In this document: one piece after another, positions 26,244-57,418 of the stretch
Numbering within the stretch: position 1 is the stretch's first letter
Layout: every line of letters starts with the position of its first letter
NCBI GenBank assembly: GCA_945876185.1
Contig: CAMCMZ010000009.1
Location: 1-64,000 of the forward strand
DNA length: 64,000 nt
Reading direction: 5' to 3'
From: Candidatus Kuenenia stuttgartensis
Lineage (GTDB): Bacteria; Planctomycetota; UBA11346
Notes under the pieces: model-generated
What the model was told of the DNA's origin: nothing
The model's database searches: none
What the model saw: the letters and a program-made list of their open reading frames with translations, nothing else
Translations under genes and position numbers: made by a program

Positions 26244-26319
26244 GCCACCTTAGCTCAGCTGGTAGAGCTACGGTTTTGTAAACCGTGGGTCGCCGGTTCG
26301 AGTCCGGCAGGTGGCTCCA
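26244..26319 (+). tRNA. tRNA-Thr(UGU), CCA encoded
   Basis: Acceptor GCCACCT pairs with AGGTGGC, the anticodon stem is ACGGT/ACCGT around a TTTGTAA loop (anticodon TGT), and the T arm carries GGTTCGAGTCC. The 3' CCA is in the DNA. First of four tRNAs before tuf. Confidence 0.97.
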
Positions 26320-26411
26320 CCCTGTGGTACCGCCGCTTGCGCTTGCTGCTTCGTCGTCCTGCCGCTGTCGTCGTTCTTTAACAATCTCCTTTTCCTGGAT
26401 CGGACCCGCCT

Positions 26412-26494
26412 GGGTAGGTACCGAAGTGGCCAAACGGGGCAGACTGTAAATCTGCTGGCTCACGCCTTCGAAGGTTCGAATCCGTCCCTGCCCA
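26412..26494 (+). tRNA. tRNA-Tyr(GUA)
   Basis: A class II tRNA of 83 nt with a long variable arm. Acceptor GGGTAGG pairs with CCTGCCC, anticodon stem GCAGA/TCTGC, loop CTGTAAA (anticodon GTA), T loop TTCGAAT. CCA is not encoded. The T stem has one mismatch. Confidence 0.95.
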
Positions 26495-26501
26495 ATCGCA
26501 C

Positions 26502-26575
26502 GCGGGTGTAGCTCAATGGTAGAGCAGCAGCCTTCCAAGCTGAATACGTGGGTTCGATTCCCATCACCCGCTCCA
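26502..26575 (+). tRNA. tRNA-Gly(UCC), CCA encoded
   Basis: Acceptor GCGGGTG pairs with CACCCGC, D stem GCTC/GAGC, anticodon loop CTTCCAA (anticodon TCC), T arm TGGGTTCGATTCCCA. It follows tRNA-Tyr by 7 bases. Confidence 0.97.
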
Positions 26576-26589
26576 GGATCATCTCAGGT

Positions 26590-26665
<76 letters not shown>

Positions 26666-26679
26666 CTCACCCACCCCCC

Positions 26680-26716
26680 CGGGGTTAAATCCCCGCACCC
26701 GGTCGGTCCACGACCG
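26680..26716 (+). repeat. two small hairpins in the tRNA-Thr to tuf spacer
   Basis: CGGGG-TTAAAT-CCCCG (26680-26695) and CGGTCG-GTCCA-CGACCG (26700-26716) follow each other directly before the tuf ribosome site TAGAGGA. They may help separate the tRNA part from the tuf message. Confidence 0.5.
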
Positions 26717-26737
26717 ATCATGCCTAGAGGAACCAAC

Positions 26738-27946
<1,209 letters not shown>

Positions 27947-27953
27947 TGACCGG

Positions 27954-27997
27954 GGCCGGATCGGATCTGGGGTCGCCCAGAACGATCCGGCCTTTTT
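27954..27997 (+). terminator. intrinsic terminator after tuf
   Basis: GGCCGGATCG (27954-27963) and CGATCCGGCC (27983-27992) make a perfect 10-bp stem followed at once by TTTTT. It is the clearest intrinsic terminator in the window and separates tuf from rpmG. Confidence 0.9.
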
Positions 27998-28033
27998 CTC
28001 GGCTTATTCCGATAACTACGAAAGAACATTTCC

Positions 28034-28195
28034 ATGGCCAAAGACAAACGTGAACATTTGATGCTGGTCTGCGCCGATTGCGGCAGCGTGAACTACCACA
28101 CCAGCCGGTCGAAGACCACCCAGAAGCTCGACCTCAAGAAGTTCTGCATCAAGGAGCGCAAGCACACCGCGCACAAGGAAAAGAAGCGCAAGTAG
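28034..28195 (+). CDS. rpmG: 50S ribosomal protein L33
   Basis: 53 residues: MAKDKREHLMLVCADCGS at the start, then a KKFCIKERKHTAHKE block. The CxxC of the zinc-binding form is present (C13, C16) but only one Cys remains in the second half, so the ribbon is incomplete. The gene is too short to be found by a long-ORF filter. Position between tuf and tRNA-Trp/secE/nusG is the standard one. The ribosome site is GAAAGAAC, weak. Confidence 0.93.
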   Translation: MAKDKREHLMLVCADCGSVNYHTSRSKTTQKLDLKKFCIKERKHTAHKEKKRK

Positions 28196-28210
28196 GCGTT
28201 TCCTGCGTCG

Positions 28211-28258
28211 ATCCCCAGCGCCAGCCGGGGATGGGCGCGGCGATGCGCAGGCATCGCC
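28211..28258 (+). repeat. hairpins between rpmG and tRNA-Trp
   Basis: ATCCCC/GGGGAT (28211-28232) is followed by GGCGATGC-GCAG-GCATCGCC (28239-28258), a perfect 8-bp stem with a 4-base loop. They sit 6 bases before the tRNA and may mark processing of a shared transcript. Confidence 0.55.
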
Positions 28259-28264
28259 AGGCAT

Positions 28265-28340
28265 ACGGGGGTAGCTCAGCTGGTAGAGCAGTGGATTCCA
28301 AATCCACCGGTCGGGGGTTCAAATCCCTCCTCCCGTGCCA
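28265..28340 (+). tRNA. tRNA-Trp(CCA), CCA end encoded
   Basis: Acceptor ACGGGGG pairs with CTCCCGT (one G-T pair), anticodon stem GTGGA/TCCAC, loop TTCCAAA (anticodon CCA), discriminator G as expected for tryptophan. Confidence 0.97.
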
Positions 28341-40563: not shown

Positions 40564-41166
40564 ATGTCGCCCGCCCCCAAAAACCCTTCCAAAAACGCCC
40601 CGGTTGCCGAGCTTGAAGAAGAAGTCGGCGCCGAAGTCCAGGTCCAGACCAACGAGGACGGCTCGATTACGCTCGCCAATGGCGAGACCCAGATCAAAGG
40701 CCCCGCCCCGATCCGTTGGACCGGCGGTGCGCTCAAGCCCGACGCCCGTTTCGGCAGCCTCGCGGCGGCCAAGTTCATCAACTGCCTCATGTACGACGGC
40801 AAGAAGTCGATCGCCGAATCGATCTTCTACGGCGCCATGGACCAGATCGCCGAGAAGTTGAAGTCCGATCCTTTGACCGTGTTCGAGCAGGCGATCGAGA
40901 ACGCCAAGCCGCTGGTCGAAGTCCGCAGCAAGCGTATCGGTGGCGCCAACTACCAGGTCCCGGTCGAAGTGAACCGCCGCCGCCAACAGACCCTGGCGAT
41001 CCGCTGGATCCTCGAAGCCGTGCGCAGCCGCAAGGGCAAGGCGACCTCGGAAAAGCTCGCGCAGGAACTGATCGACTGCTACAACAAGACCGGCACGACG
41101 ATCCAGAAGCGTGAGAACACGCACCGTATGGCCGAAGCCAACAAAGCCTTCAGCCACTTCGCCTGA
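40564..41166 (+). CDS. rpsG: 30S ribosomal protein S7 with N-terminal extension
   Basis: 200 residues, about 45 more than the usual 155-160. The S7 core starts near residue 55 (LKPDARFGSLAAAKFINCLMYDGKKS) and includes GGANYQVPVEV and RENTHRMAEANKAFSH. The extra N-terminus is acidic and lysine-poor after residue 12 (AELEEEVGAEVQVQ). The ATG at 40564 follows GGGAAAG; no closer start codon with a good ribosome site is seen, so the extension may be real. S7 binds the 3' domain of 16S rRNA. fusA does not follow; instead a repeat element and a low-GC gene do. Confidence 0.95.
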   Translation: MSPAPKNPSKNAPVAELEEEVGAEVQVQTNEDGSITLANGETQIKGPAPIRWTGGALKPDARFGSLAAAKFINCLMYDGKKSIAESIFYGAMDQIAEKLKSDPLTVFEQAIENAKPLVEVRSKRIGGANYQVPVEVNRRRQQTLAIRWILEAVRSRKGKATSEKLAQELIDCYNKTGTTIQKRENTHRMAEANKAFSHFA

Positions 41167-41170
41167 AACG

Positions 41171-41272
41171 GAAAACCGCCATAGCGCCCCAACTGCTGCG
41201 TTGGTCGTCGGTCCTTGGGCGCTGCCCAACTCCCTCCTTCCGCCTTGCATTTGGGGCACTCTGGCGGTTTTC
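41171..41272 (+). repeat. 102-nt structured repeat element, copy A
   Basis: Begins 4 bases after the rpsG stop. Ends GAAAACCGCCA (41171-41181) and TGGCGGTTTTC (41262-41272) are perfectly complementary. Inside are GCCCCAA/TTGGGGC and TTGGGC-GCT-GCCCAA helices. The blocks CTGCTGCGTTGGTCGTC and CCGCCTTGCAT are identical to copies B and C. Copy A has different terminal bases from B and C, but they still pair. Confidence 0.9.
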
Positions 41273-41302
41273 CTGACTCTCAGTTTTGCAAAAGGGTTGT
41301 CC

Positions 41303-41629
41303 ATGAAGACATGTCCCGTTTGCGCGATGAGTAACGGAAATTGGACAGGCCGGTGCATCAAGTGCAATGCTAATTTGCAGTCGGTAGAGTCGAAACCTGA
41401 TGGTGGGGTCACTGGCGCAATTCCAGAAACCAAAGAAATTCTTGAGAAAACGAAGTTTAAGTCAGGGGATAATCACAAGCAAATTCTCAATGGAATAGCC
41501 TGGTCGATTTTCCCAGCGATGGTCGCCTTAAGTATATTAGCGCGCGCTGGGATCGCTGAGGGGATATATACCGGTATCCCCATGATCATCATAGCTTTCA
41601 TGATTGGATATAGACGCGGAAATGACTGA
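41303..41629 (+). CDS. small zinc-ribbon membrane protein, function unknown
   Basis: 108 residues, not recognised as a named family. The N-terminus has a zinc-ribbon-like pair of CxxC motifs (CPVC at 4-7 and CIKC near 18-21). A polar linker follows, then one or two hydrophobic stretches (about 65-82 and 87-101, IPMIIIAFMIGY). It might be a small membrane protein with a cytosolic zinc ribbon. GC content is clearly lower than that of the flanking genes (near 47 percent by eye), suggesting acquisition. It lies just behind repeat copy A and converges with the Nudix gene, with 9 bases between stops. Confidence 0.65.
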   Translation: MKTCPVCAMSNGNWTGRCIKCNANLQSVESKPDGGVTGAIPETKEILEKTKFKSGDNHKQILNGIAWSIFPAMVALSILARAGIAEGIYTGIPMIIIAFMIGYRRGND

Positions 41630-41638
41630 TCGGTGATT

Positions 41639-42223
41639 TTATGAACACTTGTTCCGCCACCGTTCCAGCCGCCCCAAACCCAACGCCAGGAATGCACTGA
41701 CCGGTTCGGTGGTGGATGCGGCGGCGGCCCAGGCTTCGTCGATGGTCATTTGCGCGACCTGGATGTGCTCCATCGCTTCGTGGCTGATGCCGCCGACGTG
41801 GGTGAGGTCGCGGGCGAGGACGAGGTGCAGGCGCATGCGGACGAGGCCTGGGATGGCTTCGATCGGGCCGAGGTCGTCGAGTCGGTTCGGGCGCCAGCCG
41901 GTTTCTTCTTCCAGTTCGCGGGCAGCGGCGTGGAGGGGGGCTTCGCCGGTTTCGATGCCGCCGGCGGGGAACTCCCACATCCAGGCGTGGTAAGGATGGC
42001 GGTAGATCCGTTCGACGATCAGACGGCGGTCGTCCAGGAGCGGGATGACCAGCACGGCGTCCCACAGCGATTCGCAGAAATGGTAGGTGTAGGGCTGGCC
42101 GTGGCGGTCGGGCAGGTCTTCTTCGACGGTGCGGAAGTAGCGGTTTTCGCGTGCGATACGGCGACCGGTGACGGAGGGGACCGGTTGCTCACCGTCCACG
42201 CCAGTGGTGCCGGTAGCGCTCAT
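41639..42223 (-). CDS. Nudix hydrolase (ADP-ribose pyrophosphatase-like)
   Basis: 194 residues. The Nudix box is complete: GGIETGEAPLHAAARELEEETGW, reported here in two parts (GGIETGEAPLHAA and ARELEEETGW). The surrounding WDAVLVIPLLDDRRLIVERIYRHP and WMWEFPAGGIE resemble the ADP-ribose/nucleoside-diphosphate-sugar pyrophosphatase branch. It hydrolyses a nucleoside diphosphate linked to another group; the exact substrate is unclear. The ATG at 42223 is preferred; earlier in-frame codons lie in repeat copy B. Last gene of a minus-strand operon with pyrE. Confidence 0.88.
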   Translation of the reverse strand: MSATGTTGVDGEQPVPSVTGRRIARENRYFRTVEEDLPDRHGQPYTYHFCESLWDAVLVIPLLDDRRLIVERIYRHPYHAWMWEFPAGGIETGEAPLHAAARELEEETGWRPNRLDDLGPIEAIPGLVRMRLHLVLARDLTHVGGISHEAMEHIQVAQMTIDEAWAAAASTTEPVSAFLALGLGRLERWRNKCS

Positions 42224-42246
42224 CGTGGACTCACCTTGAATTCTAG

Positions 42247-42350
42247 TAAAAATCGCAAGAGTGCCCCAGATGCAAGGCGGGAGGAAGGAGTGGGGCAGCG
42301 CCACATGACTGACGACCAACGCAGCAGGTGGGGCGCTATTGCGATTTTTA
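42247..42350 (-). repeat. 104-nt structured repeat element, copy B
   Basis: On the minus strand, starting 3 bases after the stop of the 42354-42755 gene and ending 23 bases before the Nudix ATG. The ends TAAAAATCGCAA and TTGCGATTTTTA are perfectly complementary over 12 bases. GCCCCA/TGGGGC forms the second helix. The third helix (TGTGGC/GCCCCA) has one mismatch here. The two core blocks are identical to copies A and C. Confidence 0.9.
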
Positions 42351-42353
42351 GGC

Positions 42354-42755
42354 TCACGGCAGGGGCAGATACGGCGTCTGGTCGAAGCGCTCGTCCATGT
42401 CCTCGTACACCGCGCTGATCTCTTCGACCGGGATGTAGACGCGGTAGCGGTGCGCCTCGGCGCCGAATTTGTCGATGGCGTCGGCGAGCAGGATCTCGCG
42501 CCGGCCGTTGTCGGTCCAGCCTTCGCCCTTGGCGCTGGCCCAGATCTTGCGCGACATTTCCGCCGACCAGTGCAGGCAGCGGACTTCGCCGACCACGATC
42601 TCCTTGCGGAGTTCCTTGAACTTGAAGATGAAGCGTTCGCCGCGCTTGACGATCACCGTTGCGACCCGCTCGTTTTCGACGAGATATTCCAGCACTTTGG
42701 CGAGGGTGCCGGGGTTGTCGGTGCCGGGTACAATGATTTTTTTGTCGCCGCTCAT
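42354..42755 (-). CDS. conserved hypothetical protein
   Basis: 133 residues from the ATG at 42755 (MSGDKKIIVPGTDNPGTLA); an upstream in-frame ATG at 42821 adds 22 residues with no better ribosome site, so the start is uncertain. I do not recognise the family. It is a soluble, charged protein without signal peptide or membrane segment. It contains LEYLVENERVATVIVKRGERF and a tryptophan-rich middle (LHWSAEMSRKIW). It lies between pyrE and repeat copy B in the same orientation and is probably cotranscribed. Confidence 0.65.
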   Translation of the reverse strand: MSGDKKIIVPGTDNPGTLAKVLEYLVENERVATVIVKRGERFIFKFKELRKEIVVGEVRCLHWSAEMSRKIWASAKGEGWTDNGRREILLADAIDKFGAEAHRYRVYIPVEEISAVYEDMDERFDQTPYLPLP

Positions 42756-55127: not shown

Positions 55128-56360
55128 ATGCGCCTCGCGATCATCGGCAGCGGTATCAGCGGATTGACCTGCGCGCACCTGCTGCACCCGCAGCACGACC
55201 TGACCGTCTACGAGGCGGGCGATTACATCGGCGGCCACACCCACACCGTCACAGTGCCTGACGCGGCGGGTCGCACCTGGCCAGTCGACACCGGATTCAT
55301 CGTCTGCAACCGTCGCACCTATCCCAACTTCACCGCCATGCTCGACCGCCTGGGGGTCGCGCTCCAGCCCACCGACATGTCGCTGGCGGTGTCGTGCCAC
55401 CACACGGGCATGGAATACAACGGCAGCGACTTGAACGGGCTATTTGCCCAGCGGCGCAACCTGCTGTCGCCATCGTTCCATCGCCTGTGGTGGGACATCC
55501 TGCGCTTCAACAAGCTGAGCAAGACCTGGCTCGCGGCCGATCCCGCCCTGACCGTCGGCCAGGCCCTGGCACAGGCGGGCTTCGGCCGCCGGCTGCGCGC
55601 GCACTATCTGGAGCCGATGTGCGCCGCGATCTGGTCCATGCCGTACGGTGGCTTGGATGCCTTCCCGGCGCGATTCCTTTCGCGATTCCTCGATAACCAC
55701 GGCATGAACACGGTGTCCGACCGGCCGCAGTGGTTCACGGTGAAGGGCGGGTCTGCGACCTACGTCACGGCGATCACCAGGCCTTTCGCGGATCGCATCC
55801 GCCTGCGTTCGCCGGTGCGCCGGGTCTCGCGTCGGGCGGGCGGAGTGACCGTCGCCACCGACACCGACACGGCCGACTTCGACCAGGTCATCATCGCCGC
55901 CCACAGCGACCAGGCCCTGGCGATACTCGCGCCGCCGACCGAATGCGAACAGGAATTGCTGGGGGCGTTTCCCTACCAGGGCAACGACGCCGTCCTGCAT
56001 ACCGATGCCCGCGCCATGCCCAAACTGCGCCGGGCGTGGGCGGCGTGGAACGTGCGCACCGGCGGCCCCGGTGCGCCGGCGGCGGTCACCTACTGGTCGA
56101 ACCGGTTGCAGAACCTCGACACGGCGACGCCCTTCCTGGTCAGCCTCAACCAGGAGGTCGATCCGGCGCAGGTGCTCGGTCGCTACCGCTACCACCACCC
56201 GCAGTTCACTGCCGCCGCCCCGGCGGCGCAGGCCCGGCACGACGAACTCATCCAGCACCAGGGCGTCAGCCATTGCGGCGCGTATTGGCGCTTCGGCTTC
56301 CACGAGGACGGCGTCGTCTCGGCTCTCGCGGTGTGCCGGCGCTTCGGGGTGGTGCCATGA
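55128..56360 (+). CDS. FAD-dependent amine-oxidase-like protein (UfaD-like candidate)
   Basis: 410 residues. The FAD motif is IIGSGISGLTCAHLL at the start; EAGDYIGGHTHTV, VDTGFIVCNRRTYPNF and a late RPFADRIRLRSPV follow. Proteins of this kind accompany DUF1365 and cyclopropane-synthase genes in bacterial operons induced by light or singlet oxygen, and one such enzyme (UfaD in Rhodobacter) takes part in furan fatty acid synthesis. The exact reaction here is not shown. Cotranscribed with the CarH-like regulator; repeat copy C starts 3 bases after its stop. Confidence 0.82.
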   Translation: MRLAIIGSGISGLTCAHLLHPQHDLTVYEAGDYIGGHTHTVTVPDAAGRTWPVDTGFIVCNRRTYPNFTAMLDRLGVALQPTDMSLAVSCHHTGMEYNGSDLNGLFAQRRNLLSPSFHRLWWDILRFNKLSKTWLAADPALTVGQALAQAGFGRRLRAHYLEPMCAAIWSMPYGGLDAFPARFLSRFLDNHGMNTVSDRPQWFTVKGGSATYVTAITRPFADRIRLRSPVRRVSRRAGGVTVATDTDTADFDQVIIAAHSDQALAILAPPTECEQELLGAFPYQGNDAVLHTDARAMPKLRRAWAAWNVRTGGPGAPAAVTYWSNRLQNLDTATPFLVSLNQEVDPAQVLGRYRYHHPQFTAAAPAAQARHDELIQHQGVSHCGAYWRFGFHEDGVVSALAVCRRFGVVP

Positions 56361-56363
56361 ATC

Positions 56364-56467
56364 TAAAAATCGCAATTGCACCCCACCTGCTGCGTTGGTC
56401 GTCGGTCATTTGGCGCTGCCAAACTCCCTCCTCCCGCCTTGCATCTGGGGCGCACTTGCGATTTTTA
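56364..56467 (+). repeat. 104-nt structured repeat element, copy C
   Basis: Starts 3 bases after the FAD oxidoreductase stop. Ends TAAAAATCGCAA (56364-56375) and TTGCGATTTTTA (56456-56467) pair perfectly. The inner helix is TTTGGC-GCT-GCCAAA, where copy A has TTGGGC/GCCCAA. The core blocks CTGCTGCGTTGGTCGTC and CCGCCTTGCAT are identical to the other copies. The next 150 bases (56468-56617) are AT-richer and show no gene. Confidence 0.9.
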
Positions 56468-56617
56468 CAAGGAATTGTGGGTAGGATTTTGTTAAGGCGG
56501 GGGCATTTCCGGCAATTGAAAAATGTTTGGCCATTTCGATCCCCTCACCCATTTGGGGCAAAATCTGCAAAACCTCATTCCGAGGCCACTGGGGAACAAA
56601 TTCATGGATCTATTGCG

Positions 56618-57418
56618 ATGTTTAGGGTGAATCCGCCGCTGAAATCAGCGATCTTCACCGGCTGGATCCGGCATCGTCGTCGGGCGGACAAACCACAGGT
56701 TTTCCGCCACCGCATCTTCATGTGCTGGCTCGACCTCGCCGAGATCCCGCACCTGTTCCGGCAGCGTTGGTTCTGGCGGCGCGAAGGCGCGGCGCCGGCC
56801 AGCTTCCGCCGCGCTGATTATCTGGGCGATCCCCGCGTGCCGCTCGACCAGGCGGTGCGCGATCTGGTGGCCGAGCGCACCGGCGTCCGCCCGCAGGGCC
56901 CGATCCGGCTGCTCACCCATCTGCGCTACCTCGGGGCCTGCTTCAATCCGGTGTCGTTCTACTACTGCTACGACGGCTCCGGCACCCGGATCGAGACCAT
57001 CGTCGCCGAGATCACCAACACGCCGTGGCTGGAACGTCACGCTTATGTGCTGCCGGTCGGATCAGCGGACCCGGCCCGGGCCAGTCTGCACTGGTCCTTC
57101 GCCAAGGAATTCCACGTCAGCCCGTTTCAGGGCATGGACCACCAGTACGAATGGTCGTTCACCGCGCCGGGCAAAAACCTGGGCGTCCACATGCTCAACC
57201 GCCGCGACGGTCGCATCGTGTTCGACGCCACTTTGGCACTGGAACGCAGGGAATGGAGCGACGCGACCTTGGCCGGGGTGTGGTTTCGCTATCCCGTCAT
57301 GAGCCTCTTCGCCCTGGTCGCGATCTACGGCCACGCCCTCGTCCTGTGGTGGCGGGGCGCGACTTTCCATCCACATCCGCGTACCATCACGCCTCGGCCA
57401 ATCCCGGAGGTTGCATGA
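56618..57418 (+). CDS. DUF1365 family protein
   Basis: 266 residues. The family blocks are SAIFTGWIRHRR, IFMCWLDLAEIP, LRYLGACFNPVSFYYCYD and FHVSPFQGMDHQYEW. DUF1365 proteins always sit with FAD oxidoreductases and cyclopropane-fatty-acid synthases, but their reaction is unclear. The start at 56618 has no obvious ribosome site; a GTG at 56627 is possible. It overlaps the next gene by four bases (ATGA). Confidence 0.87.
   Translation: MFRVNPPLKSAIFTGWIRHRRRADKPQVFRHRIFMCWLDLAEIPHLFRQRWFWRREGAAPASFRRADYLGDPRVPLDQAVRDLVAERTGVRPQGPIRLLTHLRYLGACFNPVSFYYCYDGSGTRIETIVAEITNTPWLERHAYVLPVGSADPARASLHWSFAKEFHVSPFQGMDHQYEWSFTAPGKNLGVHMLNRRDGRIVFDATLALERREWSDATLAGVWFRYPVMSLFALVAIYGHALVLWWRGATFHPHPRTITPRPIPEVA

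Follow-up and report, generated by a model that had tools for sequence, protein, structure and literature searches.

Copies of a new MITE family at stop codons in a Candidatus Kuenenia stuttgartensis genome

Short repeats that carry no gene, lie between genes and are biased to gene 3' ends have been described as MITEs in several bacteria, and the closest to the family presented here are R0 and R2 of Pseudomonas fluorescens SBW25 (PMC2718517), RUP, BOX and SPRITE of pneumococcus (PMC3049150), and Correia and ERIC (PMC2229807). In R0/R2 (PMC2718517) and RUP (PMC3049150), inverted ends are common to the MITE and an insertion sequence, as they may be in the present family, and the pneumococcal SPRITE resembles a terminator (PMC3049150). 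R0/R2 favor convergent (tail-to-tail) sites (PMC2718517), whereas the copies described here lie on the stop codon itself, in the direction of the gene, and also between codirectional genes; moreover, RUP (PMC3049150) and Correia (PMC2229807) use TA or other targets, in contrast to NTNAN here. Among insertion sequences, the transposase of the presumed mobilizer is closest to the IS1380 family (ISEcp1 and relatives), and ISEcp1 makes 5-bp target duplications, for example TATGA (PMC2887853). The repeats analyzed here form a new family of an already known kind, in which the concentration at stop codons is unusual and real.

The stretch of DNA that was analyzed (the window, 64,000 nucleotides) contains three copies. 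Copy A, on the plus strand, consists of the hairpin only (105 bp, best delimited as 41168–41272) and follows rpsG (PF00177), whose TGA stop (41164–41166) lies within the left target duplication CTGAA (41163–41167); four of its five bases are repeated in the right duplication CTGAC (41273–41277, one mismatch). The right end of this copy appears to be its own inner hairpin arm, GGCGGTTTTC, a reading taken from a single copy with an imperfect duplication. Copy B, on the minus strand, is a 118-bp deletion derivative (42235–42352) located between a gene of 155 aa that has no Pfam match and a NUDIX gene, and is flanked by the perfect duplications GTGAG (left, 42353–42357, holding the TGA stop of the 155-aa gene; right, 42230–42234). 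Copy C, on the plus strand, is full-length (265 bp, 56362–56626): its 5' hairpin (56362–56467) is followed by a 3' module, which contains a motif of the TCACC..GGTGA type and has the terminal TTGCGATGTTTAGG (56613–56626), and it lies between ATGAA (56357–56361), which holds the TGA stop of an amine oxidoreductase gene, and GTGAA (56627–56631, one mismatch). The blocks shared by the copies have no other exact match in the window, and none of 100 shuffles equaled their match count. The first-pass annotation of this DNA had described three copies of a structured element of about 103 nt, with complementary ends, placed just after stop codons. All three are present where it had located them, far above chance, with the upstream gene's TGA inside the 5-mer directly preceding the element in three of three cases and with ends whose complementarity is borne out by RNA-fold z scores of –4.1 to –6.1. 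The unit itself was right in part, since the 5' hairpin is real but the 104 nt assigned to copy C are only the 5' part of its 265 bp and copy B measures 118 bp; the count of three gave way to about 110 copies in the genome.

This number derives from the source genome (G000; 3.80 Mb, 123 contigs, 82% complete), in which a scan for the outer arm matched 221 times, as compared with 2 in the reversed control, each hairpin giving at most two and hence about 110 hairpins in all, while the gapped exact core was found in 50 copies (none in the reversed control). The copies were analyzed in the loci around them. When aligned with their flanks, most run past the hairpin into a 3' module, about 160 nt long, with TGCGATGTTTAGG or a variant of it at its end; the full element is typically 263–274 bp, the copies are mostly 105–370 bp, and none has a gene of its own. 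The 5' end, CCTAAAAATCGCA, has its inverted complement in the 3' end TGCGATGTTTAGG, and the terminal inverted repeats by which a MITE is recognized are present (CCTAAAAATCGCAA / TTGCGATGTTTAGG). With 3' ends placed from the sequence only, 17 copies have a perfect 5-bp target duplication, each expected by chance about once in 1024, and guided ends gave further perfect duplications, including those of deletion derivatives of 118, 143 and 153 bp. The duplication has the form NTNAN, which is matched exactly in 66 of 83 copies, with the center TGA in 48, TCA in 9, TAA in 7 and TTA in 2; the right duplication is unrecognizable in 35 of the 83, and these copies may have decayed.

Some variation within the element was also observed. 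Longer variants of about 270–370 bp (L064, L069, L070, L071, L079, L080) have at the hairpin tip an extra inverted repeat, CAGGACGGGTG..CACCCGTCCTG or CAGGACAGGTG..CACCTGTCCTG, perhaps a nested insertion, and at one locus (L045, contig C65 of G000) two copies stand head to tail with an altered tip (GTCTGCTCGTCGGCTCCGCTGG). A small palindrome of the type TCACC-NNNN-GGTGA recurs in the 3' module across genera (G000 copies; L104, L107, L118).

Evidence for an insertion event comes from a genome of the same genus (G001), in which the site of copy B, the one site of this kind, is empty: the upstream gene ends in ...CTGCCCTGA and the NUDIX start follows a few bases on, while the window reads CTGCCGTGAG-element-GTGAGTCC..ATG. 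These junctions are the pair that would be expected before and after insertion. Four further genera of the family (G008, G016, G017 and G018) hold divergent elements that BLAST detected with the full element as query; read by eye, these are built alike and have duplications of the NTNAN type (ATGAT in G016, ATCAG in G018, CTAAT in G017 and CTGAA in G008); the ends of the G008 element differ (CCTGGAAAACGC..GCGTTTTCCAGG), and at two loci of G016 and G017 (L104 and L107) the 3' element end is itself a hairpin (e.g., AAAACGCAGTTGGGG..CCCCAACTGCGTTTTC), unlike in G000. Distant blastn searches of plasmid and phage collections returned no matches, and two near-identical coding-type matches in viral contigs were judged to be chance.

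Extragenic palindromes with conserved unpaired bases that are placed after genes would also be compatible with REP/BIME-type repeats moved by RAYT, a tyrosine transposase, or with integron attC sites. Both are contradicted by the 5-bp duplications, the paired inverted ends and the empty site, and attC also by the dispersal of the copies, which do not form cassette arrays. DDE transposition is diagnosed by 5-bp duplications together with paired inverted ends, which are unexpected for RAYT or integrase sites; we therefore rejected the REP/RAYT and attC identities on the target duplications and regard them as most improbable. That the copies are transposed MITEs is held with high confidence, and the data as a whole are best explained, very probably, by a MITE that inserted at NTNAN sites and whose surviving copies accumulated at stop codons. 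One of the suggestions made from the window alone, a repeat that strongly prefers certain insertion sites, is in this way backed by the target duplications, the inverted ends, the empty site in a relative of the same genus and a related transposase, and what had been proposed as an RNA gene is replaced by a mobile element with a clear anatomy.

The related transposase is encoded at the end of contig C95 of the source genome (locus L081, 8000–10412), where a DDE transposase gene is truncated by the contig end; its C-terminal 217 aa match PF01609 above the cut-off and the IS1380 models weakly. About 120 nt past its stop lies AAGGGTCTATTGAGACGTTTAGG, which is identical in 20 of 23 bases to the MITE end AAGGATCTATTGCGATGTTTAGG (88% over 25 nt by blast), the left end being missing. 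At the right border of the truncated copy stands the NTNAN-like TTTAC, and the gene lies upstream of a probable triosephosphate isomerase gene (an ORF of 267 aa, assigned by reading). An intact relative, 70% identical over the shared part, was found in G012 as an insertion sequence of 1,710 bp with a transposase of 525 aa, in which a palindrome, CTCACCCGCAGGGTGAG, was noted close to where the transposase gene begins. In the IS1380 family the ends start with CC and the duplication is 4–5 bp, and the G012 element has the ends CCTAGACGCCGCGTTAG..CTAACGCGGTGTTTAGG (CCT...AGG) between the duplications ATGAT/ATGAT. The ends of ISEcp1, presumably CCTAGATTCTACGT / ACGTGGAATTTAGG, would resemble CCTAAAAATCG / GGGATTTAGG. 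The G012 transposase scores 84.3 bits with PF13701 (cut-off 34.7), and its best NCBIfam match is NF033539 (IS1380) with 166.3 bits; as this is below the equivalog cut-off of 180, and with an identity of about 21–24% to typical IS1380 members, the protein is called IS1380-like. Unlike the gene-less MITE, which has a 5' hairpin of 104 nt, the G012 insertion sequence lacks the hairpin, and the body of its terminal inverted repeats differs from that of the MITE. The search of the source genome, 82% complete, found no intact autonomous partner. From these sequences, a divergent IS1380-like transposase is the likely mobilizer, which would cut at CCT...AGG and join the element to staggered 5-bp NTNAN targets.

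Placement at stop codons is the most unusual trait of the family. Using gene calls from a codon model trained on the window, the stop of the upstream gene was found inside the left duplication, on the strand of that gene, in 59 of 83 copies, and 71 of the 83 lie within 60 nt of the end of a codirectional gene. Stops represent only 30 of the 336 noncoding TNA sites in the window, a null that may count too much DNA as intergenic, as some genes were possibly missed. Under a stricter, spacer-matched null, in which every TNA of each emptied spacer counts equally, 17.4 of 41 copies are expected at a stop, and 33 were seen, an excess of about twofold; about half of the placement is thus accounted for by the match to the target and the compactness of junctions, and something more is needed. 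A polarity of the target, TGA versus TCA, was considered as the cause of the orientation and discarded: TGA/TAA and TCA are about equally frequent at non-stop sites (11 vs. 9), so the codirectional orientation at stops does not come from target polarity.

That a stop codon can harbor an insertion has a simple reason. TNA includes TGA and TAA, so that an element entering a stop codon duplicates it together with the target, and the stop is regenerated; with TGA or TAA hit in this manner, the upstream gene would end unchanged and the downstream gene would retain its start. Where genes adjoin tightly, the stop codon would often be the sole harmless TNA site, and survivors would accumulate there. 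The codirectional bias would require either additional selection, in which a hairpin at the gene 3' end is tolerated or useful and the reverse is not, or an insertion step linked to transcription. Target choice and selection together likely account for the placement, though incompletely.

The sister genus G008 is informative in this respect, since it has the same NTNAN target (21 of 23 copies) and only 6–8 of the 23 at stops, a lower bound because several contigs end near the element, with no orientation bias (TGA 8, TCA 8). The much weaker placement there indicates that this trait is not inherent in the element family, so that the strict post-stop placement first noticed in the window is real across the source genome but does not extend in that form to its sister genus. 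These data also bear on whether the transposase/target complex actively recognizes gene ends, for example via termination of transcription or translation, as Tn7 recognizes glmS. Such targeting would fit the excess over the spacer-matched null and the near absence of insertions at stops in the opposite orientation; in G008, however, the same target goes with a share at stops of only 6–8 in 23, as a lower bound, and with balanced orientation, and we know of no mechanism for gene-end recognition in this transposase family, which makes active targeting improbable. The data are best read as insertion at NTNAN and subsequent host-dependent selection, in which the hairpin is possibly involved.

A functional RNA element, such as a signal for termination or for 3' processing or stability, was the other possibility named in the first-pass annotation. 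In the corresponding alternative, the repeat is kept because it serves the upstream gene in cis as RNA, by termination, 3'-end processing or stabilization, and mobility is merely its way of spreading. The strongly codirectional placement directly after stops, with an orientation that target polarity does not explain, speaks in its favor, as do the A5/T5 tracts at the hairpin base in the source genome, the terminal T-tract being missing in G008, where orientation is balanced. The hairpin pairs also co-vary (of 29 consensus pairs in the alignment across genera, 15 have compensatory changes on both sides), although the element ends are inverted copies of each other, so that covariation can persist at the DNA level and is no proof of RNA. 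Against a role as RNA, copy A has its more stable fold on the minus strand (–59.6 kcal/mol, vs. –51.4 kcal/mol for the plus strand), and a simple terminator scan detected no terminator-like site in the copies, though its loop range of 3–8 nt would miss this long hairpin and other geometries are possible; these two results do not favor the functional RNA element proposed at first. Neither does selection clearly build up with age: recent copies, with perfect duplications, are at stops in 19 of 30 cases and the others in 40 of 53, and comparison of perfect with decayed duplications and of divergence classes gave no clear trend. A cis-acting RNA element is thus possible but doubtful, and we have little confidence that the hairpin has any role; the preferred reading remains a MITE whose copies were sorted by selection after insertion.

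The core of the hairpin occurs well beyond this family. Of 392 genomes in the phylum, 31 contain the pattern CTGCGTTG-N-CGCCTTGCA, 13 of them more than once, against five single matches in the reversed control, and many of the genomes with a single match probably reflect chance. In GTDB 220, where the exact core had no match outside the source genome, the stricter core TGCTGCGTTG-N-GCGCCTTGCAT was present in more than 118 stretches among the matches listed, which belong to Proteobacteria, Elusimicrobia, Omnitrophota, Acidobacteria, Planctomycetota, Faecalibacterium, Paenibacillus, Lentisphaerae and others. By reading of the loci (L135–L280), TGCTGCGTTG...GCGCCTTGCAT mostly lies in the middle of a palindrome whose outer ends are unrelated to those of this MITE, and these unnamed palindromic repeats of many phyla share the core but have other ends (for example, CTAGTGGTGTGATTCGC in Pla163 of the Planctomycetes and GGAAGCTCTGAACAAGTC in Pusillimonas) and other targets (for example, TTA/TTAA and CTAG). 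In Pla163, about ten palindromes of 167–200 bp share the ends CTAGTGGTGTGATTCGC, and the core is present in some and absent in others, so that core and ends are separable. A preference for stop codons was not detected in the cross-phylum repeats (4 and 3 of 67, control 2%), with boundaries that are rough, and automatic finding of duplications in them was too noisy and was left unused.

Rfam, searched at gathering and relaxed thresholds, has no match at the element and does not contain the core, and the initial statement that no named family fits holds against this database. The open literature searched, with ISfinder and subscription journals outside its scope, gave no name for the core, and matches to its letters were primer coincidences only, as judged by titles. 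An apparently unnamed hairpin core is common to otherwise different small mobile elements of many phyla. We tentatively suggest, as an idea that is more likely wrong than right, that TGCTGCGTTG...GCGCCTTGCAT may be a functional module kept by MITEs of several unrelated transposases, for example a site, in the form of folded DNA or RNA, for a host factor of wide occurrence that assists their persistence or spread, here recruited as a 3'-end element that favors codirectional retention at stops. Should the core do the same thing wherever it occurs, many MITEs would share a host factor or a step that is still to be found.

Two open reading frames of the window overlap the copies. One of 172 aa runs through copy A (41111–41629, plus strand), and another of 226 aa (41639–42319, minus strand) begins inside copy B ahead of the NUDIX gene, so that proteins may be extended into both elements by gene callers. 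Elsewhere in the window, five tRNA genes are clustered at 26244–28337.
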